DNA of 26,715 nt. Origin: a virus. The stretch lies in IMG/VR virus record IMGVR_UViG_3300046004_001760, positions 1-26,715 of that record; one strand, written 5' to 3'. The notes under the pieces are model-generated. The model saw only the letters and a program-made list of their open reading frames with translations, did not search any database and was not told where the DNA came from. Below are positions 1 through 24,320 of the stretch, in pieces. Made by a program: the position numbers and the translations under genes. Position 1 is the first letter of the stretch. The number at the start of each line of letters is the position of its first letter.

Positions 1-42
1 GATTACAATACCAGCCTGATTTATTAGAATTGTATATTTCAT
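1..42 (-). CDS. Start of an early-operon gene, cut by the window edge
   Basis: Only 14 codons are present, reading MKYTILINQAGIVI from an ATG at 42-40. The start overlaps the stop of the upstream gene as ATGA, and a GGAG Shine-Dalgarno lies 6 bases before the ATG, inside the end of that gene, so translation is probably coupled. From memory, phage replication-region proteins often begin with a similar 'KYTI.INQ' stretch, but this fragment is too short to name. Its place directly behind a replication-type winged-helix gene suggests a replication or DNA-binding role. Confidence 0.6.
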   Translation of the reverse strand, partial: MKYTILINQAGIVI

Positions 43-350
43 AATAAAACTCCGAATTCACTAGGAATTGTGTACCAACAAGCAGAATCAAATGGAGTTT
101 CATAACACTCATTTTTTAATGCCTCTAATTCAACTAAATCTAATAAAGTTTTTTGCACTTTCAGTTTTTCCATATAAGGGAATAGTTTATTAAAAGCGGG
201 AATTGTGCATTCCGCCCAATAGAATCCATCGTAGATATTAGCGTTATTAACTTTGCTTAATTCAAGCCAGTTACGAATTGTGTAAAGAAGAATTGCTGAT
301 TCAATGCCATATTTTTTGGCATCTTCTGTATCAAAACTATGTACTGCCAT
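39..350 (-). CDS. Phage replication-type winged-helix protein, short form
   Basis: This 103-aa protein resembles the N-terminal domain of many phage replication-region proteins. The pattern starts with SFDTEDAKKYGIESAILLYT, continues with a short linker and FYWAECTIPAFNKLFPYM, and then a recognition-helix-like segment (KLKVQKTLLDLVE). Relatives usually carry a second domain for helicase loading or DNA binding. Here the frame ends right after the winged helix and overlaps the next ATG, so it may be a genuinely short protein. I chose the ATG at 350; a GTG at 359 is in frame but lies inside the sequence that would form the ribosome-binding region. The start region (GGGTGA at 361-356) can pair with the structured segment just upstream, so translation may be controlled there. 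Role inferred: initiation of phage DNA replication, or regulation. Confidence 0.65.
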   Translation of the reverse strand: MAVHSFDTEDAKKYGIESAILLYTIRNWLELSKVNNANIYDGFYWAECTIPAFNKLFPYMEKLKVQKTLLDLVELEALKNECYETPFDSACWYTIPSEFGVLL

Positions 351-355
351 TTCTA

Positions 356-434
356 TCACCCATAAAAAAAGACGCTCTGCAACATGGGGTGAAGTTGGCT
401 GAAATTTGAGCCACCCGTATTACTTAACGTCTTT
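356..434 (-). promoter_or_regulatory. Structured RNA between antirepressor and replication gene, possible translational switch
   Basis: Read on the minus strand, an outer stem AAAGACG/CGTCTTT (434-428 with 374-368) is followed by a T run (to 364), as in an intrinsic terminator. Inside, GGGTG (416-412) can pair with CACCC (391-387), and TGGCT/AGCCA (413-409 with 400-396) is an alternative inner stem. TCACCC (392-387) can instead pair with GGGTGA (361-356), which overlaps the ribosome-binding region of the downstream gene. These pairings exclude each other. The setting, a structured RNA beside an antirepressor-family gene, recalls the C4 antisense RNAs of P1 and P22-like phages. C4 RNAs, however, normally lie upstream of ant rather than downstream, so that label is tentative. 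Confidence 0.45.
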
Positions 435-481: not shown

Positions 482-1263
482 CTATCCCTTTGTTTTTGAA
501 AGGTCTTTTAATCCGTAATTTGGAATTTTAACGTAATTTACGCGCTTGTTTAAAACTTTTGAAAAGCACTGGCACGGCGTTTTTTGTTCAAGGTCACGAA
601 TGAAGTGCGATATTGCAGTCGGGATATGGCTTTCTTGATAGGCGAATGTCACGGTTGAATGTCCATCACTATATGAAACATAAGATTGTTTGGTTACATT
701 TAACGCCATCATTGCTTCTTCAAAAATAGCTTGGCTTAATCCTTTTGCATAAAGTGTCCGTGCATTTTTTCTTGAAAGAAACCCATGAGGCACGCCATTT
801 CGCAAATCAACACTAATCTGGTCTACTCTTGCCGCTACCTGTTCAACTTTGGCTTCATTCGCGCCAATTCTATTTTCAAGTGCAAGTGATAATTGAGCCT
901 GAGCTAAAAGCATTTCAGCGGGTGATAATGGTTTTGGTTGTGTTGAATAACCGCCTGTTTTACGAATTGTTGGCAAAACTTTCTCAACAACCCAGTCTTG
1001 AAATTTCTCAGCTTCGGCTTTATTTGATCGCATAATCAAACGATACACATCAGATTCAGGAATCCATTTTGTAGCAGGTGGCAAGTTATTGATTTTGTTT
1101 AATAACGCCGTTTCGGCGTTATTGATATTTTTACAGAGCTGATACGCTTTGTCTTGTGATGCGTACTCCAATGCGTCTGCTAAATCTTTAGCTACAAACC
1201 ATGTAGTGTAGTGCGAATAGTTGTACTTACATTGAAATTAAATACTGCTACTTGATTACTCAT
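482..1263 (-). pseudogene. BRO-N antirepressor-family gene with a frameshift near its 5' end
   Basis: An ATG at 1263 with a good site (CGGAGTTAAAA) opens MSNQVAVFNFNVSTTIRTT, a typical antirepressor start, but this frame hits TAG after 23 codons. The family's next motif, WFVAKDLADALEYASQDKA, continues in another frame from base 1201 and stays open to 482. It carries the rest of a BRO-N domain (KWIPESDVYRLIMRSN, then FQDWVVEKVLPTIRKTGGY), a coiled-coil linker (MLLAQAQLSLALENRIGANE and on), and an unknown C-terminal domain of about 100 residues. The 782-nt span is 3n+2, so one base was lost or two gained between 1201 and 1212; some codons may also be missing there. If intact it would counteract the phage repressor or bind DNA. 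Alternatives are an assembly indel, or a shortened protein from an internal TTG at about 1171. Confidence 0.75.
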
Positions 1264-1548: not shown

Positions 1549-1749
1549 CTAATACTCCTTTAGTTCAGGGAAGGCTTTTAATAGCCGTGGCAAAAAGCCC
1601 TTTCTTACCGCCGTAGCGATAATTCTATTTTCGATATTGATTGATAAATCCTCGCTCCACTTGCTAAGTGCTTGTTCCGATATTCCAAGCCGCTGTGAAG
1701 CCTCTCTACTTGTGCCGCCAAAAAACTCAATTACTTCTGGTTTATTCAT
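1549..1749 (-). CDS. Cro-like DNA-binding repressor
   Basis: A 66-aa protein of the Cro/YdaS-like helix-turn-helix class. It begins MNKPEVIEFFGG; SREASQRLGISEQALSKWSE then forms a clear helix-turn-helix, with the G-I-S turn and a recognition helix reading Q-A-L-S-K-W. ENRIIATAVRKGFLP follows, as in many Cro-type proteins where the helix precedes a small hydrophobic tail. I start it at the ATG at 1749, preceded by GGAGTG and three A residues; an ATG at 1767 in the same frame has a poorer site. It is the first gene behind the promoter at 1775-1802, the expected place for cro. Its likely targets are the divergent promoters and inverted repeats at 1797-1910. No partner CI-type repressor gene is in the window. 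Confidence 0.85.
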   Translation of the reverse strand: MNKPEVIEFFGGTSREASQRLGISEQALSKWSEDLSINIENRIIATAVRKGFLPRLLKAFPELKEY

Positions 1750-1774
1750 TTTCACTCCATTATTCAAAGTATAA

Positions 1775-1863: not shown

Positions 1864-2040
1864 ACGATAGTAGTTTGTAATCAGTGTTGCCAATTTTCAT
1901 AAGTTGGCAATGCGATTGGAATTACTAAAGACGTAAAACCAATAAGCGGCGTGTGTATCATCACAACGGCAAGCACGCCGTGAACTAACAAAGTCCTCAT
2001 TGATTTGTATCCTAAAACGGAACGCCGAAAGGCACATTTG

Positions 2041-2067
2041 GCGCGGTTTAATCGCCGCGCATTTTTT
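2041..2067 (+). terminator. Intrinsic terminator before the lysis genes
   Basis: GCGCGG (2041-2046) and CCGCGC (2055-2060) form a G+C-only stem with an 8-base loop, followed by A and six T residues (2062-2067). It stands 15 bases upstream of the first lysis-cassette gene, so late expression would need read-through or a promoter inside the 15-base gap, which is not seen. Confidence 0.75.
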
Positions 2068-2082: not shown

Positions 2083-2259
2083 ATGACAACTTGGATTCCA
2101 TTTTTGTGGTCAATCGACGTGCTTTTAGGCGCATTGGTTTTGATTTTGCTATCTATTTACAGCAAAGATTTTTCATATCGAATCGAAAAAGCGCGTGTTA
2201 ATTTACGCGACAAATTGCACCTTGCGATGTCTCAGTCAGTAAAGCGGTTAGTATCATGA
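2083..2259 (+). CDS. Small single-span membrane protein, holin candidate
   Basis: This 58-aa reading frame starts at an ATG preceded by AGAGGTGAACAATT, a good binding site. It begins MTTWIPFLWSIDV, continues with a hydrophobic span of about 17 residues (LLGALVLILLSIY, roughly residues 14-26 at its core), and ends in a basic, helical tail rich in R and K (EKARVNLRDKLHLAMSQ, then KRLVS). The stop overlaps the endolysin start as ATGA. One membrane span, a charged tail and tight linkage to an endolysin gene fit a class III-like holin, a pinholin or another lysis accessory. It could equally be a spanin-like or regulatory membrane peptide. The holin role is inferred from position, not from family similarity. 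Confidence 0.65.
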   Translation: MTTWIPFLWSIDVLLGALVLILLSIYSKDFSYRIEKARVNLRDKLHLAMSQSVKRLVS

Positions 2260-2717
2260 TTCGATTTTTAATCATTACTCTGCTTTTGTTTAGTAATGAT
2301 TTGTCGGCAAAAACAAGTTACAAAGATAAGCAAATTGGATGCGCTGCACGTTTGATTTATCACGAATTACGCGGTGGATCGGATAAAGCAAAAATGGAAA
2401 TTGTGCTTAAACCAACGCTTAACCGTGCGACTGATATGTTACTTGGTGGTGTTTCCGCAGAAGGTAGTAAGGTAGAAACAAAACGGCTTGATGTTTGCGC
2501 GGTGATAAAGCAAAAAGGGCAATATCAGTGGGTAAAAAAGAAATTAAAAGTTTCCGAACAAGAAGAATGGGACGAAGCAAAAATAATGGCGAAAGACTTA
2601 CTTTCGCGCAAGTTTTATACAGTGACAGGGCGACGTTTTTTCAATAATGCTTCGCTTGGACGATTACATAAAACAAAGTCGCCTATTATTGAGTTATCAA
2701 AAATGGTTGCTTATTAA
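2256..2717 (+). CDS. SleB-type (Hydrolase_2) endolysin with N-terminal signal
   Basis: A 153-aa cell wall hydrolase. Residues 1-18 are a hydrophobic signal or signal-anchor sequence (MIRFLIITLLLFSNDLSA). The catalytic region matches the SleB pattern: AARLIYHELRGGSD, with the likely catalytic Glu at residue 37 in Y-H-E, then KPTLNRATD, DVCAVIKQKGQYQW and FFNNASLGR. Family members cleave peptidoglycan glycan strands as transglycosylases. The signal suggests Sec-dependent export, so lysis timing may depend on release or membrane depolarisation rather than passage through a large holin pore. It overlaps the preceding small membrane gene by four bases. No Rz/Rz1 spanin pair was found nearby. Confidence 0.82.
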   Translation: MIRFLIITLLLFSNDLSAKTSYKDKQIGCAARLIYHELRGGSDKAKMEIVLKPTLNRATDMLLGGVSAEGSKVETKRLDVCAVIKQKGQYQWVKKKLKVSEQEEWDEAKIMAKDLLSRKFYTVTGRRFFNNASLGRLHKTKSPIIELSKMVAY

Positions 2718-2771
2718 AATGGATTTAAATCTTGGATAGCTTTTCAATAAATACTTCAACAAAGAGAAATT

Positions 2772-3032
2772 ATGTGTAAAAAATTAAAAATCGGTGACAC
2801 AACTACCATTACCAACCTATCAAAAGGCGTAGATGAAAATGAAGGTGATATTTTGATACATGATGAATTAGAATTAAAAATTCATGATGAAGAAACTCTT
2901 GTACTGGTGGAGTGTTATAAACAAATGATGGATTTGTTCTATGAACTAGGCGCACAGCAAGAAGGTGTACTGGAAAAAGTAAGTAGATGTCAAAAATTAC
3001 TATATTCAAAAGCACAAAAACAGGTAGCTTAA
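2772..3032 (+). CDS. Hypothetical acidic 86-aa protein
   Basis: Family not recognised. The protein is acidic: a short N-terminal part with KLKIGDTTTITNL, an acidic stretch (GVDENEGDILIHDELEL), then a helical second half (LVECYKQMMDLFYELGAQQE) ending KLLYSKAQKQVA. It has no signal or membrane segment. AAAGAG precedes the ATG at a suitable distance. It lies 54 bases after the endolysin and 12 before the next gene, so it probably belongs to the same late transcript. The place would fit a lysis accessory, but the sequence does not show that. Confidence 0.65.
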   Translation: MCKKLKIGDTTTITNLSKGVDENEGDILIHDELELKIHDEETLVLVECYKQMMDLFYELGAQQEGVLEKVSRCQKLLYSKAQKQVA

Positions 3033-3044
3033 CGAGGAAATGAC

Positions 3045-3419
3045 ATGGGTGAAGCAAAAAGACGGGGTACGTTTGAAGAACGCAAGGCGCAAAGCGTACA
3101 AAAATCAGGTTACTTTTTCACGCGCGGTATTGATGACGAATTTGGCTTATTCAAAAAGACAACTAGCGAATCAATCATCATGCAGCACATCGACCAAATG
3201 CCTGATAGACAATCCATTTTGTACAGAATTCGAGAAAGAAAACGCTTAAACATAGACCTGCCTTTCATTATCAGACTGGGTGACGGTGTGATTGTGTTCT
3301 CCGTTAAGAACGGTTTTTACATGATTCTTTTTATGGGCGGAACAGATGCTGAATTGCTTGAAAAAGCGGAGCGATGGAAACAAAACCTTCTTAAATCCTT
3401 AAACCTTGCTGAGAAATAA
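3045..3419 (+). CDS. Conserved MGEAKRRG-type protein, 124 aa
   Basis: The first residues, MGEAKRRGTFEERKAQSVQK, are a recurring N-terminus in small conserved proteins of proteobacteria and phages whose function is not known to me. A mixed domain follows (DLPFIIRLGDGVIVFSVKNG, then FYMILFMGGTDAELLEKAER) with a basic, helical tail. There is no signal peptide; the hydrophobic run near FYMILFMG is too short for a clear membrane helix. The ATG at 3045 is preceded by GAGGAAATGAC. The gene ends two bases before rdgC, so the two are probably co-expressed. Confidence 0.7.
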   Translation: MGEAKRRGTFEERKAQSVQKSGYFFTRGIDDEFGLFKKTTSESIIMQHIDQMPDRQSILYRIRERKRLNIDLPFIIRLGDGVIVFSVKNGFYMILFMGGTDAELLEKAERWKQNLLKSLNLAEK

Positions 3420-3421
3420 CC

Positions 3422-4339
3422 ATGTTTAAAAATCTAATTACATTCCGTTTAACGGAAAAATTCACACTTTCAGCAGAAGAACTTGCTGAAAAATTAGCGC
3501 AATTACAATTTTTGCCATGTACAAGCCAGCAATCTTTTAGTTTTGGATGGACTGCACCGATTGGTGAAAACTTAGTCCATAAAGCAAGTTACTTTATGAT
3601 GACCTGCTTGAAAAAAGAAGAACGAATTTTGCCGTCTTCGGTTGTGAATGAGATGTTGCAAGAAAAAATAGAAGAAATCGAGGAAAAAGAAGGTCACAAA
3701 CTTGGCAAAAAAGCGCGAGCAGAACTTAAAGACAATTTGATTTTTGAACTTTTACCACGCGCATTCACGCATTCGACCAAGTTGTTTGCTTACATTGATA
3801 CTGAAAACGATTTTATCGTCATCGATAGTGCATCGACCAAGCAAGCCGAAGACCTGCTTAGTATATTGCGTAAAACACTAGGCGGTTTTCCTGCAATTCC
3901 ATTGAATACCGCATTAAAACCAGTTCTTGAAATTACGAACTGGTTGCAACATGAAAATGTAAAGTATGGACTTAATAATGTGCCGCGTGGATTTATGATT
4001 GACGATGAATGCGAATTACGCGCACCCGAAGATGGCGGCAGTATCGCTAAATTCAAACGCCAAGATTTATGGCTGCCAGAAATAAAAAATCACTTGGAAA
4101 CGGGCAAGCAGGTTGTCAAATTAGCCTTGAATTGGAAAGACCGACTTTCTTTTGTGTTGGATGAAAATTTAGGCGTGAAGCGTTTGAAATTTTTGGAATT
4201 GGTTCAAGAACAGCGTAATGAAACTAGTCCTGCAACCGAAGAAGAGCGTTTTGATGTTGATTTCATCATTATGACTGCTGAATTAAGCGAATTTCTCAAT
4301 GAATTGCTTGATGCGTTTGGCGGGGAGAATCGTGCATGA
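3422..4339 (+). CDS. rdgC: RdgC recombination-associated protein
   Basis: This 305-aa protein follows E. coli RdgC (303 aa) from end to end: MFKNLITFRLTEKFTLSAEE; LQFLPCTSQQSFSFGW; KKEERILPSSVVNEML; LLPRAFTHSTKLFAYIDT; IVIDSASTKQAEDLLSILRK; LRAPEDGGSIAKFKRQDL; ITNHLE-type segment KNHLETGKQVVKLALNWKDR; LKRLKFLE; and the C-terminal RFDVDFIIMTAELSEFLNEL (here with V for A after the D). RdgC forms a ring-shaped dimer around DNA and modulates RecA-dependent recombination and replication restart. In a phage it could protect replicating DNA, tune recombination or blunt RecA/SOS signalling; which applies here is unknown. Its place between lysis and tail genes is unusual. It overlaps the next gene by four bases. 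Confidence 0.95.
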   Translation: MFKNLITFRLTEKFTLSAEELAEKLAQLQFLPCTSQQSFSFGWTAPIGENLVHKASYFMMTCLKKEERILPSSVVNEMLQEKIEEIEEKEGHKLGKKARAELKDNLIFELLPRAFTHSTKLFAYIDTENDFIVIDSASTKQAEDLLSILRKTLGGFPAIPLNTALKPVLEITNWLQHENVKYGLNNVPRGFMIDDECELRAPEDGGSIAKFKRQDLWLPEIKNHLETGKQVVKLALNWKDRLSFVLDENLGVKRLKFLELVQEQRNETSPATEEERFDVDFIIMTAELSEFLNELLDAFGGENRA

Positions 4340-4824
4340 GCAAAGAATGGATTGAACTATTTGTAAAGGAAGTAAAGCTAGATTTTGCACAAGAAAAACG
4401 CGCTTTAAAATGGTTCGAGAAAAACCCACCTGAGCCGATTGTTGTTGGTCTTAGTGATTATCAGATTGATGATATTGGAAAAATTTGCCTTGGTGTTAAT
4501 TCTAGGTGTTTGCGCCCGTCAATGGGTGATTATATTCAGAGAATTGGAGAATATGTAAAATCCAAAACCTTTGCACAACTATCAGAAGCGATTAAAGCTG
4601 CAATGGTCGAAGTTGATATACGCAATCAAGAAATTGAAAAGCTAAATGATGACTTTATTGCGCTTGAAAGCGAATACTCAAAACTCAAAGCGCAGGTCGC
4701 CACGAAAAACGTAAGTGAAATAGTTAAAGCATCTGATGGTATCGAAGTAGAAGGCATTGACTTATATGAAACATGCGAATCATTAAAGAAATCCCGTGCC
4801 GCAATCGCACGGGCTACAAATTAA
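4336..4824 (+). CDS. Hypothetical 162-aa protein coupled to rdgC
   Basis: Family not recognised. The N-terminal half is mixed helix and strand (MSKEWIELFVKEVKLDFAQE; a PEPIVVGLSDYQIDDIGKI segment; PSMGDYIQRIGEYVKSKTFA). The second half is strongly helical with a coiled-coil appearance (IRNQEIEKLNDDFIALESEY, then SKLKAQVATKN). No signal or membrane segment is present. Its ATG overlaps the rdgC stop (ATGA) and has a strong site, GGGGAGAATCG, so it is translated with rdgC and could work with it. The end of the gene contains a 7-bp perfect hairpin in its coding sequence. Confidence 0.75.
   Translation: MSKEWIELFVKEVKLDFAQEKRALKWFEKNPPEPIVVGLSDYQIDDIGKICLGVNSRCLRPSMGDYIQRIGEYVKSKTFAQLSEAIKAAMVEVDIRNQEIEKLNDDFIALESEYSKLKAQVATKNVSEIVKASDGIEVEGIDLYETCESLKKSRAAIARATN
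4793..4813 (+). promoter_or_regulatory. G+C-rich hairpin at the 3' end of the 162-aa gene
   Basis: CCCGTGC (4793-4799) and GCACGGG (4807-4813) pair perfectly around a 7-base loop, inside the last codons of the gene. No T run follows directly, so it is not a standard terminator. It could slow decay, attenuate read-through, or be an accident of the S-R-A-A-I-A-R-A coding sequence. Confidence 0.35.
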
Positions 4825-4857
4825 CCATTTTATCACCACTTATTTTAGGATTCTAAA

Positions 4858-5280
4858 GTGACTATCAAAGTTACCGCATTTAGATTGCAAAAGCCTCTTT
4901 CATTGGAGCAGTTTTTAGTTCAAAAAGATTCATTGGAGTGTTTTGAGGTAGATAAATTAGTGTTTGTTGGATTCCAAGAGGAATACATAGGGAAAATGCT
5001 ACTTCTATCGCGTATAAATTTATCGGTATTTCCGTTTAATGGTAGCTGTTTTAAACCAGACGAACTTGGTTTGCTTGATAATTCATTTGGAATTGAAGTT
5101 ATAGTCAATAATAAAAACCTTATTTGTATCGGTAGATTTACTGAATATACTATTTCAGAAAAAATAGACTTAATAACAAATGAGTTATTTAAAATGAACT
5201 CTATTTCTTATCAAGCCTCAATCGGATTCGAGGAAGAATTAGTTGATGAAGTAAATAAATTTTTAGCAGGAAACAAATGA
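4858..5280 (+). CDS. Hypothetical 140-aa protein
   Basis: Family not recognised. The start codon is GTG, with TAGGATTC upstream; no ATG near it keeps the whole conserved-looking N-terminus (MTIKVTAFRLQKPLSLEQFL). The protein alternates strands and helices (LVFVGFQEEYIGKMLLL, FGIEVIVNNKNLICIGRF) and ends with an acidic helix (FEEELVDEVNKFLAGNK). It has no signal or membrane segment. Composition is more A+T-rich than the tail genes that follow. Its stop overlaps the next ATG (ATGA), linking it to the connector-like gene. It occupies a place where capsid-region genes would be expected in a lambda-like phage, but does not resemble a capsid, decoration or terminase protein. Confidence 0.7.
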   Translation: MTIKVTAFRLQKPLSLEQFLVQKDSLECFEVDKLVFVGFQEEYIGKMLLLSRINLSVFPFNGSCFKPDELGLLDNSFGIEVIVNNKNLICIGRFTEYTISEKIDLITNELFKMNSISYQASIGFEEELVDEVNKFLAGNK

Positions 5281-5588
5281 CATTTCCATACAAACACGCA
5301 ATCGCTGCGAAATACACTCTACCAACTGCAAAATTAGCAACGTATGGCGCGTTCACATTGCGTGTCTTTTTGATTAACGAAAAACAGCGCGTCATCGATG
5401 AAAATACAGGCGGGTTAAGTTTTGGCGATAACCAATTACTTGTCCGAATGCTTAAATCTGAATTTGACCGCGTGGGAATTGTGGCGCGTACAAATATCAC
5501 GATTGATGGCGTTAATTACTCAATTCAATCCATTCCAGCCGCAACGGCAATGGGAGAAATAACTTTACCAGTGGCGATTAAATTATGA
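5277..5588 (+). CDS. Head-tail connector-like (FII/Gifsy-2-type) small protein
   Basis: The 103-aa protein is short and beta-rich: YKHAIAAKYTLPTAKLATYG, GAFTLRVFLINEK, LSFGDNQLLVRMLKSEFDRV, then ITIDGVNYSIQSIPAATAMG and ITLPVAIKL. The last part, 'DGVxYxIxSIxxxxxMGxITLPV', has the look of small phage connector or tail-attachment proteins of the lambda FII/Gifsy-2 type, which seal the head-tail joint. Its place just before a Z-like minor tail gene agrees. The match is by pattern and size only, and a tail-side completion protein is an alternative. It starts at ATG with AGGAAACAA upstream and overlaps both neighbours by four bases. Confidence 0.5.
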   Translation: MTFPYKHAIAAKYTLPTAKLATYGAFTLRVFLINEKQRVIDENTGGLSFGDNQLLVRMLKSEFDRVGIVARTNITIDGVNYSIQSIPAATAMGEITLPVAIKL

Positions 5589-5773
5589 TTATTTTTTCCA
5601 AAGAATTTTTTATTTTTATTTTAGAAATTACTTTTCTTATGCTTGCAGAGTATTTTTTATTTGATGTAAAAAAAGACGATTTATTTATTGATGCAGCATT
5701 GGCAATTTTGATTGCTGATTTGGTAGATAGAAGAACTGAAAAAAATAAATCATGTCATTCCAAGTCAGAATAG
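5585..5773 (+). CDS. Small membrane protein overlapping two tail genes
   Basis: A 62-aa reading frame. The first half is strongly hydrophobic (FFIFILEITFLMLAEYFLF, about residues 8-26) and a second hydrophobic stretch follows (FIDAALAILIADLVD), with a polar, basic tail (RRTEKNKSCHSKSE). Its ATG overlaps the previous stop as ATGA. Its last 22 bases overlap the start of the Z-like gene, which itself lacks a clear binding site, so translation of this frame may feed ribosomes to Z. It may be a real small membrane protein or mainly a coupling frame. No family recognised. Confidence 0.5.
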   Translation: MIIFSKEFFIFILEITFLMLAEYFLFDVKKDDLFIDAALAILIADLVDRRTEKNKSCHSKSE

Positions 5774-6345
5774 AAGACGCAGGGCTATTTTCATTCGTTG
5801 AGCAATTCCCGAATGCTTTTCGTAATGCAACCCGCTCTGCAATTGGCACAACGACGACATGGGCGAAAAAACAAGCCGACAAACGTTTATCAGAAGCAAA
5901 TAAAACGCCTGATAAAACATTTAAGAAATTTCGAGACAAGAAGTTTTTTAACGATGGCTATAAAAGCGGCAAATCCGCCTATGGAAAAATTTGGATTGGT
6001 TACAACAAAGTCCGTGCAAAACGAACTGCTGATAATTCGTTTTTAGGCAAGTTAATTCAAGAGCGTGATGGCGCGTGGGCGGGGAATTATTATTTCCCGA
6101 AGGCGTTTGTTGCAACATTTGATAGTGGTCACACGGCTATTTTTAAGCGATTAAACAAGCTAACGCGAAGTGGAAAATGGAAGCCCGAAGAACAATCGGC
6201 GAATATGGCGCGAACAATACCAACGATTGATAGCATGATGCCAGACGTAACGAATGAATTGATGAATCGGTTTAACAGCAAGGTTTCGGATTACATTTCA
6301 AGCGGCAGAATTCCGTCGCCTGAAATTTTTTCACGCTTTGATTAG
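5752..6345 (+). CDS. Minor tail protein Z-like (tail completion)
   Basis: A 197-aa basic protein comparable in size to lambda gpZ (192 aa). The N-terminal part FPNAFRNATRSAIGTTTTWA with KKQADKRLSEANKTPDK resembles the 'axxxAixrtatwarsqa' region of prophage minor tail protein Z. It continues with a basic middle (KFRDKKFF, KSGKSAYGKIWIGYNKV), a strand-rich part (YYFPKAFVATFDSGHTAIFK) and a helical end (DVTNELMNRFNSKVSDYISS). In lambda, gpZ is added at the tail's upper end and is needed for DNA connection to the tail. The ATG has no good binding site and likely relies on overlap with the preceding frame. Its stop abuts the stop of the convergent minus-strand gene with no gap. Confidence 0.65.
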   Translation: MSFQVRIEDAGLFSFVEQFPNAFRNATRSAIGTTTTWAKKQADKRLSEANKTPDKTFKKFRDKKFFNDGYKSGKSAYGKIWIGYNKVRAKRTADNSFLGKLIQERDGAWAGNYYFPKAFVATFDSGHTAIFKRLNKLTRSGKWKPEEQSANMARTIPTIDSMMPDVTNELMNRFNSKVSDYISSGRIPSPEIFSRFD

Positions 6346-6573
6346 TTACGCATACATTTCATCATCTTTAACATCAGACAATGCCATTTTTTTACCAAGT
6401 TTAAAGCTGTCATTCATCGCCTCGGTAAATTCAGGAAAAAGCAACGATAAAATTGCTAGTTTTTCTGCATCGACGCTTTCATAGGTCATGGCAACCGTTG
6501 CAATGATTTTATCAACCAATTCTAATACTTCTGTAGTATCTGGTTTAACTGTGTGTTCGATTTTTGCTTTCAT
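6346..6573 (-). CDS. Hypothetical 75-aa protein, inverted cassette gene 3
   Basis: Family not recognised. The protein is helical: MKAKIEHTVKPDTTEVLELV, then DKIIATVAMTYESVDAEKLA, ILSLLFPEFTEAM and a polar tail (KLGKKMALSDVKDDEMYA). I start it at the ATG at 6573, preceded by AGAGAGTATT; a longer frame upstream lacks a site. Its first 29 bases overlap the end of the upstream cassette gene. Its stop touches the stop of the Z-like gene on the other strand, with no terminator visible between the convergent genes, so late transcription from the plus strand would run antisense through it. Confidence 0.65.
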   Translation of the reverse strand: MKAKIEHTVKPDTTEVLELVDKIIATVAMTYESVDAEKLAILSLLFPEFTEAMNDSFKLGKKMALSDVKDDEMYA

Positions 6574-6886
6574 AATACTCTCTGAATGAATTAAAACAAT
6601 TTCGTAATGCCGCCAACTTTTCACTGTCGATGTAATCAATCAAAAAGTCATCAATGCAAGACAAAACAGACGGGTTGCATAACCACGCCTGTTCATCCTT
6701 GCTAAATGCTTCGTTAATTAAATCGAGCGTTGTTTTTGGCTTTTCAACGACAGGTAAAAATTCCTTCACCCGCTCAAAACCAGCTTGATAGCCATCAGCC
6801 GACGCTTGTTTAATCATTGCTTGAGCCTGCTCAAGCGAGAAGGTAGGCGTAATCGGTTGAATGGGTTGTATAACGGGTGAATTCAT
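6545..6886 (-). CDS. Hypothetical 113-aa protein, inverted cassette gene 2
   Basis: Family not recognised. It starts with a Pro/Gln-rich segment (MNSPVIQPIQPITPTFSLEQ), then a helix-rich body (AQAMIKQASADGYQAGFERV, KTTLDLINEAFSKDEQAWLC, and DFLIDYIDSEKLAALRNCFN). AAGGAT lies 9 bases before the ATG. Its C-terminal 'Y-x-S/D-x-EKLAxL' stretch resembles the middle of the next gene (YESVDAEKLAILSLLF against YIDSEKLAALRNCF), so the two may share a short related motif or be distant paralogues. It overlaps the next gene by 29 bases. Confidence 0.65.
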   Translation of the reverse strand: MNSPVIQPIQPITPTFSLEQAQAMIKQASADGYQAGFERVKEFLPVVEKPKTTLDLINEAFSKDEQAWLCNPSVLSCIDDFLIDYIDSEKLAALRNCFNSFREYYESKNRTHS

Positions 6887-6927
6887 CTTTACTTATCCTT
6901 TTTCTTTAAATCAACTAAGCCATGTTT

Positions 6928-6941
6928 AGCCTTTTCAGGCT
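6928..6941. promoter_or_regulatory. Small hairpin between inverted-cassette genes 1 and 2
   Basis: AGCCT-TTTC-AGGCT forms a 5-bp hairpin; on the plus strand it is followed by CTTTTC. It lies just after the stop of the coiled-coil gene. It is weak on either strand and may be a partial terminator or chance. Confidence 0.25.
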
Positions 6942-6945
6942 CTTT

Positions 6946-7930
6946 TCATTGGCTAATGTTGGTTGGGGTTTGTGTGGCGCGTTGATAACCACCAACATTG
7001 ATAGCTGTTGCCATTGCTTGCTGGCTATGCTCTTGTACAGTCTGTCTTTGTTCAATACGATTCAATTGTACTGCCAAAGCATTAGCAGAGGCGGTATTAT
7101 TGATATTGTTCGTTACCTCAACATTTCCTGAGCGGAAAACATCCGCAGTTCTTCCGTGTCTTGCATCACCTTCAAGTTCTGCAATCTTGGCATAAGCCTG
7201 AACCAACTCTTTACTAGGGATATTTTCCGCAATGTAGTTTTTGAGGTCACGAATTTCCGCGCTCAGATGCCAAAACAGCCGCGCGTGTTTTATCGCCTTC
7301 GTTCATTGCGACAATCGTCAACGCATTATTACCTTGTAGCAAATTGGTATTTAGAGCGTTGATATTTTGATTCAATGAAGTAGCCAATACATTCACAGTT
7401 GCTAAAATGTTAGCCCCTGAAGCATTAACGGCGGTCGTTAAATGACTTGAATTACTGCTAATTTCGTCGCTTAATTCATACGTTGACTCTGCAATTGCTA
7501 ATTTAATATCGCCTTGACCAACTAAATTCGCAACTGCATTTGATGTTGTAGCTTGAGCCAGTGCATCTTTTGTTGCAGCAATATCACGCTGAACCGCTGC
7601 CTCGGCTTGCCAAACATCTTTACTCACCCCTGCAACATCACGACGAACTGCGCCAATATCTTGAATTGTATTGATGCCATTAACAACGCCTTGCACTTCA
7701 CTTACTGTTGCGCCACGATTATTGCTATCGTGATAATCGTTGTTTCCATGGCGATTGTTGCCATTCAAACCTAATGCGTTGGCTATAATTCCACCAACAA
7801 ATCCAGTACCAAGACCGCTTAAACCAATATCTTCTGCCATACCATTACCTTCTGTGTATTTTTTGATTAAATTTTGAACGTTAGCGTCTTTCAATAATTC
7901 GCTAACGGGACTTGTTGCATTTACCGCCAT
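6946..7930 (-). pseudogene. Phage Gly/Asn-rich coiled-coil protein gene with a frameshift
   Basis: Two frames together make one protein of about 327 aa. The first (7930-7247, 227 aa) has an N-terminal helix, a Gly-rich segment (LGTGFVGGIIANALGLNGNN) with an Asn/His-rich stretch, then long alternating helical repeats (DIGAVRRDVAGVSKDVWQAE, AVQRDIAATKDALAQATTSN) ending NEGDKTRAAVLASERGNS. The second continues at about 7260 as AEIRDLKNYIAENIPSKELV and ends in LNRIEQRQTVQEHSQQAMAT and QTPTNISQ. This order, G-rich start, coiled coil, 'DGxKTRA' and 'IRDLKNYI', matches a common phage protein of unknown function, perhaps structural. The 985-nt span is 3n+1, implying one extra base near 7261. It could be natural decay, an assembly indel or recoding. 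Its start has a hairpin-buried Shine-Dalgarno. Confidence 0.75.
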
Positions 7931-8004: not shown

Positions 8005-8478
8005 ATGTATTCAGCACAACAAGCCTTAATTGACGAAATAAAAACGATGGTTGATGTTGTTGATAATGTCGATGTACCAGTTTTTAAAATGGTATCGACG
8101 GGTAGTGTTATCGACGCGCTTAATGACCAAGAGTTACAAGCGACTTTGCCAGCGTGCGCCGTTGCGCCAATAAAAAACCCACAACAAGATAATGCGCCTC
8201 AATCTATATCTGGTGATTTTGAAATAGTTACCCAATGCTACGCGATTACCGTTATAATTCCCGCCGAAAGTGATGTTTCTAGCCATGAAAACACTGAGGC
8301 AGTTGGTGGCGCGTTAATGCAGCGAGTTATTGAAATGGTCAATTTTTATCGCCCGACAGGTTTTAATGATTGTTTTTCGGTAATTAGCGGTTATGACCCC
8401 GCGCCAGCAATCGCTACTGATAAAGCAATGGCAGCTTTCACTCGTGCAGTTAAAATAATGCAAGTGATTAGAAAATAA
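8005..8478 (+). CDS. Tail terminator-like protein
   Basis: A 157-aa protein in the place of a tail terminator (lambda U-like), between the Z-like region and the major tail protein. The pattern is that of such small alpha/beta proteins: an N-terminal helix (YSAQQALIDEIKTMVDVVDN), a central strand pair with ITVIIPAESDVSSHEN, a helix (GGALMQRVIEMVNFY) and an end rich in strands and helix (AMAAFTRAVKIMQVIRK). The terminator hexamer caps the tail tube when it has reached its length and joins it to the connector. GGAGATAAA precedes the ATG. Assignment rests on size, position and general pattern. Confidence 0.55.
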   Translation: MYSAQQALIDEIKTMVDVVDNVDVPVFKMVSTGSVIDALNDQELQATLPACAVAPIKNPQQDNAPQSISGDFEIVTQCYAITVIIPAESDVSSHENTEAVGGALMQRVIEMVNFYRPTGFNDCFSVISGYDPAPAIATDKAMAAFTRAVKIMQVIRK

Positions 8479-8572: not shown

Positions 8573-9472
8573 ATGAGTGGCTCACCACATTCCTCGCAGA
8601 ATACAACCCTGCGAATTTTTGACAATTCAACAACTGTTCAGCAGACTGCATTAGCATCTTTGCTTAATGATTTGCGCGGCTCTGACTTAACCGACGCTGA
8701 AAAAATCACCAAATTTGAAACGTATGTAACTACAGTTAGAGCGGGTTCAAATCCTAACTTCAATACTGAAATTTCAATGACAGGCGTTGCAACAACAGCG
8801 GCAGCACAGGTTGATGGTTATTATTCAGGTACATTTACAAAAGCAATTTCAGGAACAACTTTCGCGGGTTCTTATATTTCAGTAGGAACGTCAAGCGGAA
8901 AGGCAATGCTTAAATTGACAGTAGAATCCGTAACGGGAACAACACCGACTTACCCAGTTACTGTTGCTGCCGATGCGTTCACAACGGGGTTATCAGCTTC
9001 TGTAACAAACTCATCAACATGGAGCGGAACGATTACCGCGACCACAGCATCATCAATTACAGCGGGATCGAATCCTTATGAGCTTATTGATGGCATTACG
9101 GCATATAATGCAACGGGCGAAACCGAAGCGACGATTAGTGCAAAATTGCTGAACCGTAAAGGTACTTACAAAGACAAAGGTTCAACAGATGGCGGTGATT
9201 GGGGATTTGATTTCTTAGATATTCCCGATGATGTCGGTCAAATTTTATTGCGTAATGCAAAAGCGGATAAAGGGCTTTATGCTAACCGCGTTTTTGTAAA
9301 AGAAAGCACTAATACGGACGATGCAACAAATGTGATTCGTTGGTTTGGTATTTGTCTTGTGACAAAAGTTGAAGATTCAGATCCGATTGATTCAATGGTT
9401 ATGAGTAAGGCGACCTGCCCAGTTCAAGACGGACAAGTACGCGGTTCATCATCATCAACATTGTTTGATTAA
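8573..9472 (+). CDS. Major tail (tube) protein
   Basis: A 299-aa Ser/Thr/Gly-rich protein with the look of a siphovirus tail tube subunit. The N-terminal half has a helix with QQTALASLLNDLRGSDLTDA and strand-rich segments (YYSGTFTKAISGTTFAGSYI). The middle is Thr/Ser-rich, possibly an inserted Ig-like part. The second half is more ordered (DWGFDFLDIPDDVGQILLRN; ATNVIRWFGICLVTKVEDS; SMVMSKATCPVQDGQV). Hundreds of copies would polymerise around the tape measure. It has a strong GGAG site, a structured leader and a terminator directly after it, all usual for a highly expressed structural gene that must outpace its neighbours. Position between tail terminator and chaperone genes matches lambda gpV. 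Confidence 0.75.
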   Translation: MSGSPHSSQNTTLRIFDNSTTVQQTALASLLNDLRGSDLTDAEKITKFETYVTTVRAGSNPNFNTEISMTGVATTAAAQVDGYYSGTFTKAISGTTFAGSYISVGTSSGKAMLKLTVESVTGTTPTYPVTVAADAFTTGLSASVTNSSTWSGTITATTASSITAGSNPYELIDGITAYNATGETEATISAKLLNRKGTYKDKGSTDGGDWGFDFLDIPDDVGQILLRNAKADKGLYANRVFVKESTNTDDATNVIRWFGICLVTKVEDSDPIDSMVMSKATCPVQDGQVRGSSSSTLFD

Positions 9473-10009: not shown

Positions 10010-10413
10010 CCTACGTTGAAAAAGTAGCGTGGTTAAATGCTACGCTAGAAAAATCAAAAGCTACCCGTCTAGCATTAAGTCAGGCGGGTATTGATAGCAA
10101 AAATAAAAAACTTCAATCTGAGTGTCAAGCCCGTCTAAAATTCCCAGAAATTGATGATGAATTTTATCATTTTATCACATGGATTCAGCAACTTGGTTTT
10201 TGCATGGATGGCGGAATGGGAGCGTCAAAATTAACCTATCAAGAAATTGATGCGTGGGCTAACAGAATGCGAGAAGATATTACGCCATTCGATACTGAGT
10301 TATTGCGAAAAATGTCAATTGGCTATGTAAATATGATCACGCTCGCAAGCAAGCCAGATTGCCCAGACCCAATGAAAGAACTTGAAAAAAAGATTGGCAG
10401 GGATTATGATTAG
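9551..10413 (+). CDS. Tail assembly chaperone -1 frameshift fusion (GT-like)
   Basis: Ribosomes slipping back one base at 9985-9991 would read on as NVARCIAYVEKVAWLNATLE and stay open to a TAG at 10411-10413, giving a fusion of about 287 aa (147 from the first frame, 140 from the second). The second part is helical (ATRLALSQAGIDSKNKKLQS, FYHFITWIQQLGFCMDGGMG, WANRMREDITPFDTELLRKM) and has no convincing start of its own: the only late ATG (10204) has no good binding site and would cut off the first half. In lambda, the G:GT ratio is fixed by frameshifting and is required for tail assembly. The join is predicted, not proven. Confidence 0.8.
9985..9991 (+). other. Programmed -1 ribosomal frameshift slip site
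   Basis: In the frame of the short chaperone the codons read GTA AAA AAA ACG, giving the heptamer A-AAA-AAA (X-XXY-YYZ form), within a run of eight A. The zero frame ends 15 bases after the run (TAG at 10007-10009). A possible stimulating stem TAGCGT/ACGCTA starts about 35 bases downstream, and AACGT/ACGTT is another weak option. Confidence 0.8.
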
Positions 10414-11835: not shown

Positions 11836-11869
11836 CCAACAATTACTGTCGTGACGACAGCATTGTTGG
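11836..11869 (+). promoter_or_regulatory. Long hairpin over the tape measure ribosome-binding region
   Basis: CCAACAAT (11836-11843) pairs with ATTGTTGG (11862-11869); inside, CTGTCG/CGACAG (11846-11851 with 11855-11860) closes on a TGA triloop. The stem covers GG of the weak binding site GTTGGAAAT, 8-10 bases before the ATG at 11878, and may limit tape measure translation. Confidence 0.5.
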
Positions 11870-11877
11870 AAATAAAA

Positions 11878-14800
11878 ATGGCACAGCAACGCGCAACTAT
11901 CATCCTAAGTTCTGACACTCGCCAAGCCGAGGCAGGAATCAGTCGGGTTAATTCAGGATTATCCGATTCAAAAACGAAAGCCCTTGAATTATCGACGGCT
12001 TTCAATCAAATGAACCTTTCTATTGCAGGTTCAAGCTCAACATTAGGCGCATTACGAAACCTACTTAATACGTTAGGGTTAGGCGTTGCTGTGCATCAAT
12101 TAACTGAGTACATGGACGCATGGCAGAATCTTAATGCGCGTTTAAAACTCGTCACCAATTCCTACCAAGAATTTCAAGTCGCCCAAAAAGGCGTGTTCGA
12201 TATTGCCCAGCAAACGCGGCAAGGCTTAAAAGAAACCGCTGATTTGTATTACAAAGTGGCAGATTCGGTACGCTCGATGGGATTATCACAGCAACAAGTT
12301 TTGCAGCATACCCGCGCCGTTTCTCAAGCTATCGTTATTTCTGGTTCAAGTGCCGAATCTGCAAAAGCTGCACTCGTTCAGTACGGGCAAGCCATGGCAA
12401 GTAATCGGCTTGGTGGTGATGAACTTCGTAGTATCGCTGAACAAGCACCGCGATTATTCCGTTTAATTCGGGAAAATTTATCAATGACAGGTGGCGCGTT
12501 TGGAGCAACGCAAGCGCAATTCAAGGCTTTGGCAGCTGATGGATATATCACTACCGAAAAGATGATTGCAGCCGTAAATCGTGGCTCAAAATCACTTGAA
12601 TCCGAGTTTTCAAAACTCCCTTTAACGATTGGTCAAGCATGGCAATTGCTTGAAAACCAAATGTTGAAATTTATCGGGACGCAAGGCGAATCAACAGGAA
12701 TGTTCACCGCAATTGCTAATGGTGTGAAATTGCTGTCCGAAAATATCAGTGATTTGGTTAATGTGTTGGGTATTGGTGTTGCGAGTTGGGCGGCATTTAA
12801 AGCGGCAAGTTCATTGTCTGCCTTTGGTGAAGCCGTATCAAATAGAAAAAGTGAGTTAATTGCGAAAGAAATTACCGAAACTAAATTATTACAAGCCGAA
12901 AAAGAAAAACAAGCCATTGCAGAAAATGCAGCAGTAGTGTTGCGTGAACGACGAAGTTTAGCACGTTCACGAGCTATTGAACGTGAGTTAGCGGCGGAAA
13001 TTAAAGTAATCGACGCAAGCAAGGCGAAATTAGCACAAGAAGTCGAGATACAGGCGCAGCGTGATGCGATTATTGCAAAAGAAGTTTCGGCACAAGCTGA
13101 AAGAGATTCGCTATTAGTTCGCCAAGCCACACGAACAGAAGAAGCAATTATCCTTGAAAACAGAATGATTTTAGCTGAGGAGGCTAAGATAGCCCAAGCG
13201 ACTGCACTAAATTCAGCATTGGCATCTGCAACCGTTGCAAGTGAGCGTTATTCCGCTGCTCTTGAATTAGAAACTATTGCTTATTCAAATCAATCCGCAA
13301 TGACATTGTCAGCAACGGCATTGATTGAAGCGCAAGCAGTAGCGACAGCTCATGCCACGGCAATGAATGCAGCTTATACGGCATCGTTAGAGATTGTGGC
13401 AATTGAAGAAGGGAGATTAGTTTTAGCAGAAAGAGCAGAAACCATTGCATTAAATCAAGCTATTGCTGCTGAGGAATCAAAAATAATAGCCAATACAGCA
13501 TTGGCGCAATCAGAACTGGCATTATCCGCTGCAAAAAATCAGGCGAATGCTTTGTTGTTGCGAGAAGCTACGGTTGTTATCCCAGAAAACATTAGAGCGC
13601 AAAGAGAGGTTAATCGAGCTATCGGCGAAAGCATGACCACGCGCATGACTGCCGCAAATAACATCGTACTTGCTGATAGAGCGGTTGCATCTTCGATGGG
13701 CGCACGCATGGCAACAACGCAAGCCGCAAACGCCGTTGTTTTTGCAAATATCGCCGCGACAGAAGCACAAACCATTGCTGCGCGTGAACAAGCTATTGCC
13801 AATTCATTGACGACCAAAACGTTTGAATTCATGCGTGGAATTATTCCATTTTTGACAACGGAATTTAATGCACTTACCGCTGCAATGATGCGTAATCCTT
13901 TTACTGTAATTGCTGTTGCTTTAACGGCACTTGCTACTGCTGCCTATGCTTATCGTGATTCATTGATTTCAGTGGGAAATGAGCAGGCGACATTAGGGTC
14001 ATTAATTGAGGCTTCTTGGAATAAAGCGGCAAATACATTAAGCCCTGTTGCTGCATTTTTTTCTGAATTAAAAACACATATTTCAGAAATAAAATCACTT
14101 ATCCCAGAAACGGGATTGGCAATTTTTGATGATAAAACGGTAACTGTTTCAGGATTTTTAAAAGAAGGCATGAATTGGATGTTTGGCGGAATAACTAAAG
14201 ATGCCGCCAGCATTGACCAAGCAAAAAAACTACAATCCGAGCAACAAGCAGCTTTAGACCAAAATGAAAAGAATGCTTATGTCGGAAGCAAAGCGACTGA
14301 TTTATTAGAATCTCTTAGAGGTGATGCAGGTAATTTAAATATCGTCGAAAATCACCAGAAAAAAATCGCTGAAATTTACATGAAAGAAATCCGCATCAAT
14401 CAAATTTATACGAAAGAAATCACCAAAAATAACGCGCTTTTAATTCAAGCAAAAAAAGAGCATAACGCTGAAAATCAAAAATTGGCGCAACAGGCGATTG
14501 ATGACGCGCAAAAAAATATCATCCTGTCAAAATCACTCGCAGACCAGTTAATTCAAAAAGAAAACGATGCGATTGCTCAATTAAATAAAAAAGAAACTGC
14601 TGCCGATAAATCAAATCCTTTTGAAAAATTAGCGTCAAATTACGAAAAATCAGGCGCGAAACTTGATGCGACGTTTGAAAAATATGCCTCGAAATACAGG
14701 GTATCGGTTGATTTGTTGAAATCAATTGGCTTGGTTGAATCGGGTTTAAACGAAAATGTAAAAGATAGTTCAGCTCATGCAGTTGGTGTTATGCAGGTTA

Positions 14801-17800
14801 AACCAAAAGCATACGGTGGTGGTGATTATGGATTAACCGAGGCGCAATTACGCACGACAGAAGGTTCAATTGAAGCTGGTGCAAAAGCAATTTCGATGCT
14901 AATTGATAAATACAAAGATGCAAATTTAAAAACAATTGTTGCCTTGTATCATGAAGGGGAAACGGCGGTATCGCGTGCCAACATGAAAGCGCATGGCGGT
15001 AATTTGGATTTAACCACTCTGCCAAGCAAAGAAGGGCGTGATTATGTTGGCAAAGTTGAACAAGCTAATAAAGCATTAAAAGGTAATTTTTCAGAAATTG
15101 AAAGTGGTGTTAAGTCGCAAGCGGACGCACTTAAAAAATCAGAGGATGACCTAAATAAACATTTCGATGAACAAAATAAACTCCACGAAAAGGCATTGGC
15201 TCTTAAATCGAAATACACGAAAGAATCAGGCGATAAATTCTTAGTCGATGAACAGGCGGCGTGGCATTGGTTAAAATCACAGCAATTAACCCATGAACAA
15301 TACTTGCAAGTAATGAGTGGCATTGCCAAAGCGCGTGAAGAAGCTTTTGCGAAAAAAATTGAACCTGTTACGAATTACAACGCCACCATCGATGAATTAA
15401 CTCGAAATAAACAAAGTGGCGCGATTTCAAAAGGCGATTATGGTTTAGGTGTGGCGAAAGCCAATGCTGGGTTAATGAATCAATATCAAGATGTTGGAAT
15501 TCCGCAAATTCCTGTTGAGCGTGCGGGTGAGGTTGTAGCAGCGAAAAATGTCCAAGATGCCGAAAAATCAATGTCGTCATACAATGAAAAAATGAAGGAT
15601 GCGCGACAATCTATGCTTGATATGGGTGACGCGGGAAAAATGGCATTTGATGGTATTTTAGGCGGTATTAGTTCGGTAGCTGGCGCGATGTCATCTTTCG
15701 GAAAAGAAATGGAGAAATTAAACCTTTCTTTTGAAAAACAAGGGGAGGCGTATATTAAAACAATGGGCGATACGTCAATTTCACAAAAAGACCGCGAGGA
15801 TGCCACAAAAACCTATTATAAAAATAAAGAGGCTTACGAATCCGCATCATTTAAAGCTGAAATTTCAGGCGCACGTCAAATTGCAGGTGCAACATCAAAA
15901 CTTTTTGGTGAAAAATCTGCCGCTCGCAAAGCATTCCATGCTGTTGAGATTGGTATGGGGATGATTGAAATGGCGTTTGCCGCCAAAAAAATGATTGTTG
16001 ATGTCGCGGCTGGCGCGGCGAATATGTTTGCTCAAGGTGGTTTTGCAGGGTTTGCAGGTGTGGCCGCGATGGCGGCTGTGATGGGTGGATTAGGGTTTGC
16101 AATGTCTGGCAGCTCAAAAACCGTTGATAATACAACAGCGGCAACCGACCCAACGGGAACTGTTTTGGGCGAGCCTACTGCCGTATCAAATAGCCTTGAT
16201 AACATCATTAAAACGCTTAATGACATTCACGCGAGCGAATACCCAGAATTAAAAGCAATGGCAGATAATTTCCGAGGATTTGATCGTGAAATGTACAAAT
16301 TGCAGCAACAAATGTCGCGCTCAACGGTTAATTTTACCAATATGCAAGGCATGGGAATTCCAACTGCGCCGACTGGCGCAGGACAATCTAAAAATCCATT
16401 CGGCTCAGGTGCTGCAATTGCAGGAAGTTTAGCGGCTAGTGCCACATTAGGTGCGGCTGGTGTTGGAACGGCTGTTTTGGCGACGGTTGCTAATGCCGCT
16501 ATTTCAGCAGGACTTACAACAGTTGGCGGAGCAATTGGCGGTATGGCAACGACTGCAACGGGAGCAGCAATTTCAACAGGTATGGCGTTAGGCGCAACGG
16601 CATCAAGCGCAATGTTGGTTGGTGGTGCGGTTTTAGGGTTAGCAGGCGGTTTGGTTTTAGCTGGCTTGCAGTATGGTTTAGGTAAATTGCTGGGCATTGG
16701 TAAAGTAAAATATGAGCAAATCGGCGAAGGTATCGTAATCAATTCAGGAAAATTGATGCAAGACGGAATGTTATCCGCCTTAGACGCATCAACATTCCGC
16801 AAAGATATACAAACCACAAAGGGTTGGTTTAGCGATACAAAGCGCGTTATTGAAACTTACGGTCAGTTAAGCGGCGAAATCGCAGGTACATTGCAAGGTG
16901 TGAGCGATAACTTAACGGGTGGAATGTTGAGCGTCGCTGAAAATCTAAACGTGCTTGATATTTTAATGTACAAATTCACCGATGTGGCAAGTCGCCCATT
17001 CTTAAAAATCGACTTTTTCAAAGACGGTAAGCGTGTAGAAGATACGAACAAGGCATTAACCGACCAAATCAACGCATGGGCGGATAGAACGGCTAAGAAT
17101 GTGTTTGGTATTTTATTTAGTGAATATCAAAAACTAAACGAAGGCATGATGGAAACCGTGGCGCGTTTATCCATTCAAATAGCAGGTGTTAAAGGTGCTT
17201 ATGCAAAACTTGGTTTTAGTTTAGGCGAAACAAATTTAGGTTTAATCCATTTTTCGGACACGATGACGCAAATCTTTCAGTCGAGCGCGAAAGCGGATGA
17301 CGGCTTGAAAAACTTTATCGCTGGCATGAATGAAGTGTATGACTTCGCCACGAATCAAGGGCAAAAAGCGCAATTGGGATTTACCAAAGGACAACAAGCA
17401 TTAAAAGACTTGAGTTTGAATACCGATATTACCAATACCGCGCAAGTTAAAGCAGATATATTGAAACTTTCCGAAATGAATGCGAAAAACATTGAGGATA
17501 AGACTACAGCACAAGAGGCGCAAAGAAAACTAAAAGAACCTGTTGAAGCGTTCAATAATCCATCATTAGCCGTTGGAACGACGATGGAGGAATTGTTCAA
17601 AGCAATCGGTGGAAATCGAGGCGATTGGGAAACAGTTTTTGGAAAAGACTTAAACAAAGCGACTTGGGCGACATCAAAGTGGAATGAAGCCACATTTGAA
17701 AAACTGGGTGCAAAATGGAAGCCTGTAGCAGATTATTTTGATCAAATAGAAATGGTTAAATCGAGTGCAGCAGCTCAAGGTGGTGCATCGATTGATATTG

Positions 17801-20322: not shown

Positions 20323-22150
20323 AACGCAAATACAAGGCGATTGGATTGCGACGATTTCAGCGTTAGATGCGCTCGATAATCCGATTACACTGCATTATTC
20401 TGATAAGGGCTACAAAGACCCCGTTTCAGGCTTGTATTATGATTCACGGATGACGCAACCCGCTCGCATTAGGATTGGCGCGAATGACGGTGGATTATTA
20501 AAAGTCATGAATCCGCCATCAACTGGTGAAATTATTCTGGCAAACAAAGATGGTCGCTTGAATGGCTTGCTAGATTATTCGTTCGACGGGCGCGAAGTGG
20601 CATTACAGTTAGTCGCACCAGATGGTCAAGTTACGACGTGGTTAAAAGGCATTACGACGCGATTCTATCAAGATGGCACGGATATGAAATTGACGTTAAA
20701 GTCGCTAAGTGAATCCCTTGATTTGCCATTAAATCAGGCGCGTTATTCAGGCGGTGGTGGCGTTGAAGGTTTGACAACTGACATCATGGGAAACGTTAAG
20801 CCACGAGTTTATGGTTCACCGCCGAATGTAACGCCTGTTTTATGTTATGCCGCACTGGGAATTTACCAAGTTAGTGATTTAACGACCACGACCGTTACAG
20901 CAGTTTATGATAAAGGTGTTGCGATAACGCTTGGTGTAACGAGAGCAAGTCTTGCAGCTTTAATCGCAACAAGTCCTACAGCGGGAACGTTTGACCGTTT
21001 TCAAGGTTACTTTCGACTTGGGACAATGACTGTTCAGCAAATAACCTGTGATGCAAACGATACAGTAAGCGATGCGGGGGATGTTTTTGAACAGGTTTGT
21101 TCGTCCATTACATTTTCAACACCGCGTGATGTTGTAGGTGAAATCCCTGTTTTGACTGATGCGCCTACGCATAAATATCAGTTATCGGCATCCGCAACCT
21201 GCGTGATAACTTCGGTTTATGATAATGGCACACGGTTAGAATTTGAGGGTTTTTATGCGGATTTAGCCGCTTATAACGCTACTGCGCCGAGCGCGGGAAA
21301 ATGGAAATCATATCAAGGTAAAATCCGCATTTCACCAAAAATAGATACCCAATACCCTTACGCCGAAATACCATTGGGGACGATAACCTGTAATGCAACC
21401 GATAGCGCGGTGGTTTTAACTGATACTTATACCGCTACAGTGAATGCGCTCGCGATTAGTCGCTTAAATGCGTGTGGCGCGATTGGATTATATTTGAATT
21501 CTGAGGTAACGATTCGCAGTGTATTAGACCAAATTTGCAAATCTTGTGGCGCGTATTGGTGGTTCGGAGATAGTGAAAATGTCGAGGTTTATAATACCAA
21601 TCAACTTAACGCGCAGATTTACCAAGAGCCATCCGCCACGCCTGATTTAACGCTTTACCCTTATCGTACCGAAGGATCAACCATTGCGAGAACATCAACA
21701 GGGATTGGCGAAAACGGATTACCGATTTATTCGGTGGTTGCTAATTACCGAAAAAACTGGACGGTACAAACGGATGTTTTACTTGCAACGCCTCAAGCGC
21801 GAAAAGCAATTATTGCTGTTGATTCACTGGTGCAAGAATCCGCAGATTTGGCGGGAACAAAAGCACGTCATCCGCAATCAACGCGCTTAACATTTGAATC
21901 ATTATTGAATTCACAGACAGATGCCCAAGCTGTTACAGTTCGATTATTAAATTTTCTAAAAAAACGCTGTGATGTGGTCGAATTAGAATACATTTATTCA
22001 GAATTACCGCGCACATGGCTAGGAATGACTGTGAAACTTTATTACCCGCGATTCAGTTATAATGATGGTGTGAGTTTTATTTTAGTTAGTAGCGAGGTCG
22101 ATGTTTTGCTGAAAACAGTCAAAATGCGCTTGATGGGGTACAAGGTATGA
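20315..22150 (+). CDS. Tail-tip/baseplate hub-like protein with a tandem duplicated module
   Basis: A 611-aa protein following the tape measure, where tail-tip proteins sit. The N-terminal part (ITLHYSDKGYKDPVSGLYYD; QPARIRIGANDGGL; GEIILANKDGRLNGLLDYSF, then DGREVALQL) matches a known type of phage tail protein found in many proteobacterial phages. A module is repeated: about 193-250 (VTAVYDKGVAITLGVTRASL, AGTFDRFQGYFRLG, QITCDAND) and about 298-363 (ITSVYDNGTRLEFEGFYADL, AGKWKSYQGKIRIS, GTITCNATDS). The C-terminal third contains ICKSCGAYWWFGDSENVEVY and ends in strand-rich segments. I infer a hub or adaptor role at the tail tip; the exact lambda counterpart is not clear. It overlaps both neighbours by 4-8 bases. 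Confidence 0.75.
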   Translation: MARTQIQGDWIATISALDALDNPITLHYSDKGYKDPVSGLYYDSRMTQPARIRIGANDGGLLKVMNPPSTGEIILANKDGRLNGLLDYSFDGREVALQLVAPDGQVTTWLKGITTRFYQDGTDMKLTLKSLSESLDLPLNQARYSGGGGVEGLTTDIMGNVKPRVYGSPPNVTPVLCYAALGIYQVSDLTTTTVTAVYDKGVAITLGVTRASLAALIATSPTAGTFDRFQGYFRLGTMTVQQITCDANDTVSDAGDVFEQVCSSITFSTPRDVVGEIPVLTDAPTHKYQLSASATCVITSVYDNGTRLEFEGFYADLAAYNATAPSAGKWKSYQGKIRISPKIDTQYPYAEIPLGTITCNATDSAVVLTDTYTATVNALAISRLNACGAIGLYLNSEVTIRSVLDQICKSCGAYWWFGDSENVEVYNTNQLNAQIYQEPSATPDLTLYPYRTEGSTIARTSTGIGENGLPIYSVVANYRKNWTVQTDVLLATPQARKAIIAVDSLVQESADLAGTKARHPQSTRLTFESLLNSQTDAQAVTVRLLNFLKKRCDVVELEYIYSELPRTWLGMTVKLYYPRFSYNDGVSFILVSSEVDVLLKTVKMRLMGYKV

Positions 22151-23999: not shown

Positions 24000-24002
24000 A
24001 AA

Positions 24003-24317: not shown

Positions 24318-24320
24318 TTT

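Follow-up and report, generated by a model that had tools for sequence, protein, structure and literature searches.

Gene order in lambda, phage WO and F-type pyocins

The genes of phage lambda are arranged in the order lysis, head, Z/U/V and tail. The DNA analysed here is an IMG/VR virus record taken in its entirety (26,715 bases, linear and without end repeats; hereafter the window). It resembles lambda in that divergent regulators are followed by lysis genes and then by co-directional neck and tail genes (Table 1), but differs in having no head module between lysis and neck, and in carrying an inverted cassette at the neck-tail boundary.

A different arrangement is described for the Wolbachia phage WO, where the lysis cassette lies directly 5' of the tail module, and variants differ in how the head and other modules are ordered and oriented (PMC9203015). 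The adjoining lysis cassette and tail module are what phage WO and the window have in common; the genes themselves are unrelated, the lysis genes of phage WO are of a different (patatin) type, and rdgC, present in the window, goes unmentioned in the part of the published account considered here (PMC9203015). With phage WO as a precedent for lysis genes beside the tail and for variable modules, the arrangement of the window falls within known mosaicism.

At trp, in a chromosomal site between trpE and trpGCD, F-type pyocin clusters combine 13-17 F genes with lysis genes and regulators (PMC9810705), and a replication gene is not expected in them. Like the window, they bring regulators and lysis genes together with a non-contractile tail in a single cluster (PMC9810705); unlike them, the window carries Neck1 and a replication gene, and its tape measure is very long. 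The parts lists are similar, and the kinds of element are different. We conclude, with a probability of roughly 0.83, that the window represents part of a mosaic, rearranged siphophage with a tail predicted at about 400 nm, and that the head module of this phage lies beyond the 26.7-kb contig.

Table 1. Features of the window, with coordinates, strand and the evidence for each assignment
Feature	Coordinates	Strand	Evidence
Start of a further leftward gene (MKYTILINQAGIVI...)	1..43	-	Translation; leaves contig at left end
Replication-initiation protein, short form	39..359	-	phrog_11233, E 4.9e-20
Bro-N anti-repressor	482..1171	-	phrog_130, E 7.9e-26; PF02498
Cro-like regulator	1549..1767	-	phrog_409, E 5e-8; P22_Cro below cut-off
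Strongly folded leader before lysis cassette	1880..2066	+	z = -4.09; intrinsic terminator 2041-2060 at its end
58-aa single-TM protein	2083..2259	+	Translation; putatively holin-like from position
Weak cell-wall hydrolase, signal-like N-terminus	2256..2717	+	PF07486, 20.2 bits; phrog_938, E 9e-4
Two small genes, no assigned function (ORFs 2772-3032, 3045-3419)	2772..3419	+	ORFs, translations
rdgC	3422..4339	+	PF04381, E 4.5e-111
Two small genes, no assigned function (ORFs 4336-4824, 4858-5280)	4336..5280	+	ORFs, translations
103-aa gene in the place of the head-closure (FII-like) gene	5277..5588	+	Position and size only
62-aa ORF	5585..5773	+	ORF
Neck1 / tail completion protein (Z, HK97 gp10 type)	5752..6345	+	phrog_27, E 2.1e-13
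Three-gene cassette between Neck1 and presumed tail terminator	6346..7930	-	Match to L069 trio
Tail terminator, probable	8005..8478	+	Position, size; phrog_28023 (unknown function), E 2.4e-5
Major tail protein (tail tube), probable	8573..9472	+	phrog_158, E 5e-4, weak match
Tail assembly chaperone	10204..10413	+	PF23812, 26.5 bits (cut-off 27); homologue in G001
Tape measure protein, 2,823 aa, SLT domain	11851..20322	+	TMP_3, E 2.3e-53; SLT, E 2.3e-12
Tail tip and fibre region	20315..26713	+	Relatives 42-90% identical; severed by right end

The block between the lysis and neck genes

An earlier note on this DNA, made from the letters alone, had reported that no head module separates the lysis genes from the tail, and this was borne out: the block at 2718-5752 consists of RdgC and small ORFs, none with a head-family match, so that the window departs here from the lambda-like order. 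The note had counted rdgC and five small genes. The rdgC assignment held, the best RdgC matches showing only 39-44% identity, while the small ORFs number six (those five together with another, of 62 aa), their lengths ranging from 62 to 162 aa. The product of ORF 3045-3419 bears an MGEAKRRG motif at its N-terminus. Three of the small ORFs (2772-3032, 4858-5280 and 5585-5773) have a GC content of 24-32%, against 37-44% in rdgC, the neck gene and most tail genes, as expected of inserted accessory genes; ORF 4858-5280, at 30% GC, is insertion-like.

Searches with PHROGs and Pfam gave no credible match to a head family for any scanned window protein, the sole head-family rows being at chance level (replication protein, E 0.045; ORF 4336, E 0.049). 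Head families were likewise absent from an NCBIfam scan of ten window proteins, and single-family searches of the window for terminase, portal, one capsid family and head closure returned nothing. Open frames in the block, RdgC aside, reach 170 codons at most, which leaves no room for a terminase, portal or major capsid gene hidden by divergence. Across the 26.7-kb contig, no head gene of the window phage itself was seen.

What the note had called an uncertain connector is real, its product matching a family annotated as 'tail completion or Neck1 protein', and the window thus has the head-to-tail neck protein of a siphophage. Upstream of it, the 103-aa gene is, from its position and size, a candidate for the head-closure gene. 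Its product had no family match in PHROGs or Pfam, the search of the window with the head-closure family phrog_161 found nothing, tblastn returned one weak match at E 8, and the structure model (mean pLDDT 46.5) was too poor for use.

Contig ends and the left arm

Coding sequence is severed at both ends of the contig, by the leftward gene at the left and by the fibre ORF 25994-26713, still open, at the right. Because both ends lie within genes, the absence of a gene from the contig says little about its absence from the genome. Inside the left end, the match of the replication-initiation protein to its family covers only positions 1-97 of 297. A scan with the anti-repressor recovered 48 loci, and none of these has another gene in common with the window.

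The leader that precedes the lysis cassette folds into several hairpins, and no shuffled sequence was as stable; Rfam yielded no match to it. It could be a late-operon leader or an antitermination site. The lysis genes named in the earlier note stand in weaker form, the cassette at 2083-2717 being recognised from the single-TM ORF and from one hydrolase match below the PF07486 cut-off of 27 bits. The product of the second ORF is about 30% identical to phage hydrolases and is probably an endolysin. In layout, the leader and the lysis ORFs look like the opening part of a lambda-type late operon.

The tail module and the inverted cassette

Tape measure, tail tube and tip genes are present, as in a siphophage, and no window protein matched a tail sheath in PHROGs or Pfam. 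The earlier description of the tail as complete has to be given up, since the fibre region leaves the contig at its right end. For the probable tail terminator the structure model was too poor for use (mean pLDDT 39.3), and neither the terminator nor the tail tube had a match among named phages by tblastn. Phage Tsamsa has a tape measure of 3,123 aa and a tail of 440 nm (PMC3903500); by proportion, the tape measure of the window predicts a tail about 400 nm long. After the chaperone region and ahead of the tape-measure genes lies a hairpin of 18 pairs with a T-run (10469-10510), and the two genes that follow it (10529-11823) are AT-rich. The second of these, a 335-aa gene with no assigned function (10816-11823), lies immediately before the tape measure, and only the first 69 residues of its product clearly match a 162-aa gene in the same place in a relative of the window (G002).

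The cassette between Neck1 and the presumed tail terminator has a counterpart in the relative L069. Its first gene is 54% identical to L069:8009-8998 (E 2e-34), and the scores of its second and third genes against the next two L069 genes were reached in 0 and 1 of 2000 shuffles. The L069 trio (8009-9666) comes after the fibre genes and shares the strand of the tail, so that the cassette of the window, on this comparison of sequences, is moved and inverted relative to L069; either arrangement may be ancestral. The inversion supports the view, offered in the earlier note as one of two readings, that the phage is rearranged. The first cassette gene (6905-7930, minus strand) is frameshifted near 7247, its frame running for about 100 codons in another phase, which may be a read error or a real disruption.

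Relatives of the tail tip

Relatives were gathered with the tail-tip proteins encoded at 20315-22150 and 22147-23367, which yielded eight other viral records. Terminase and portal genes were found in all three records of 60-80 kb (G001, G005 and G007; IMG/VR 3300042894_002769, 3300046004_001101 and 3300046005_001038) and a capsid gene of phrog_247 in two of them (G001 and G007), while terminase, portal and the phrog_247 capsid were found in none of the five records of 11-26 kb (G002, G003, G004, G006 and G008). The presence of head genes therefore tracks the length of the record. G001, at 79 kb, is probably complete, because it has an exact 127-base terminal repeat. Its genes follow the usual order of terminase, portal, scaffold, capsid, adaptor, head closure, Neck1, terminator, tail tube, chaperone and tape measure. 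The tape measure of G001 has 4,147 aa (L004:1719-14162), predicting a tail of about 580-600 nm.

The three long records resemble the window in their tail-tip proteins (42-65% identity) and in the end of the tape measure. They differ from it in having other neck and tube genes and in carrying lysozymes behind the tail, on the opposite strand; in G001 and G007 the head module lies directly 5' of neck and tail, G005 and G007 have a DNA polymerase of their own, and G001, the one of the three that was checked, is without rdgC. Only chaperone, tape-measure and tip parts are common to the window and the long records, in which its neck and tail-tube genes have no detectable relatives; the long records consequently inform on the tail tip only. 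Scans of viral contigs with Neck1, RdgC and the tail tube found no relatives, and a scan with the tape measure found only G002, already among the eight. EBPR siphovirus 2, whose tip protein is 25% identical, was considered as a guide to the heads and rejected, its sequence being partial.

Alternative explanations

The earlier note had left two readings side by side, a phage whose head genes lie elsewhere and an F-type tailocin, that is, a set of regulatory, lysis and tail genes clustered in the chromosome and producing headless, non-contractile tails that kill related bacteria. The first is favoured by Neck1, by the replication and anti-repressor genes, by the open ends and by the head genes in all relatives of at least 60 kb. 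The second has in its favour that regulators, lysis genes and a tail without head genes are the build of published pyocin clusters (PMC9810705), but it fails on the replication-initiation gene, since genes for genome replication are not expected in an F-type tailocin. Neck1 and a tape measure that predicts so long a tail also count against it, as does a tip family that occurs in ordinary phages carrying head genes. Bacterial flanking genes were not seen in the virus record, and the tail-tip protein had no relative in a one-per-species collection of bacterial genomes at the sensitivity used. We regard a tailocin as very unlikely. Very unlikely, too, is a self-replicating headless element, with neck-bearing tails of about 400 nm, that would be a new kind of tailocin or a satellite tailing the heads of another phage.

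An assembly chimera, in which two phages of one metagenome were fused in or near the block and the missing head module is an artefact, is unlikely. The record is an assembled viral contig whose composition shifts inside the block (24-42% GC by gene), and scans of viral contigs found no second, independent contig with the same junction. However, adjoining genes share a few bases at 5277, 5585 and 5752, and at 6345/6346 one gene meets the next without a gap. Such overlaps and abutting neighbours are typical of natural phage genomes and rare in a random join, and so argue against an assembly join at those points; moreover, the tetranucleotide correlation between the left block and the tube/chaperone block (0.90-0.91) is like the values within the tail. 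It is most improbable, too, that the window belongs to a defective prophage or tail-only satellite that is without its former head genes and either uses borrowed heads or makes tails alone. The short replication gene, the frameshifted cassette gene and the lack of head genes in the contig would suit such an element, but all major tail genes are open, including the 8.5-kb tape measure, the lone frameshift may be a read error, and a contig with both ends open does not show a loss.

A probable rearranged siphophage and its meaning

In the rearranged siphophage that we favour, the head module (terminase, portal and capsid) would lie outside the contig instead of taking the place between lysis and tail that it has in lambda. 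Recombination would have put the lysis cassette, rdgC and the low-GC insertions immediately 5' of the neck genes, and would have brought the three-gene cassette, in inverted orientation, to its place after Neck1 and before the tail terminator. Genes in another part of the genome would supply the heads, and these would be coupled to the tails through Neck1 and perhaps the product of the gene at 5277. We infer in this way the existence of head genes in the window phage, their location and the assembly of its virions.

A missing head module is weak evidence for a tailocin when both ends of a contig are open, and here a head module is present in every relative whose length would allow one to be seen. 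Head-to-tail gene order is usually rigid in phages. The junction of lysis genes, rdgC and neck, together with the inverted cassette, would add an example in which that order is broken, with the break 5' of the neck genes.
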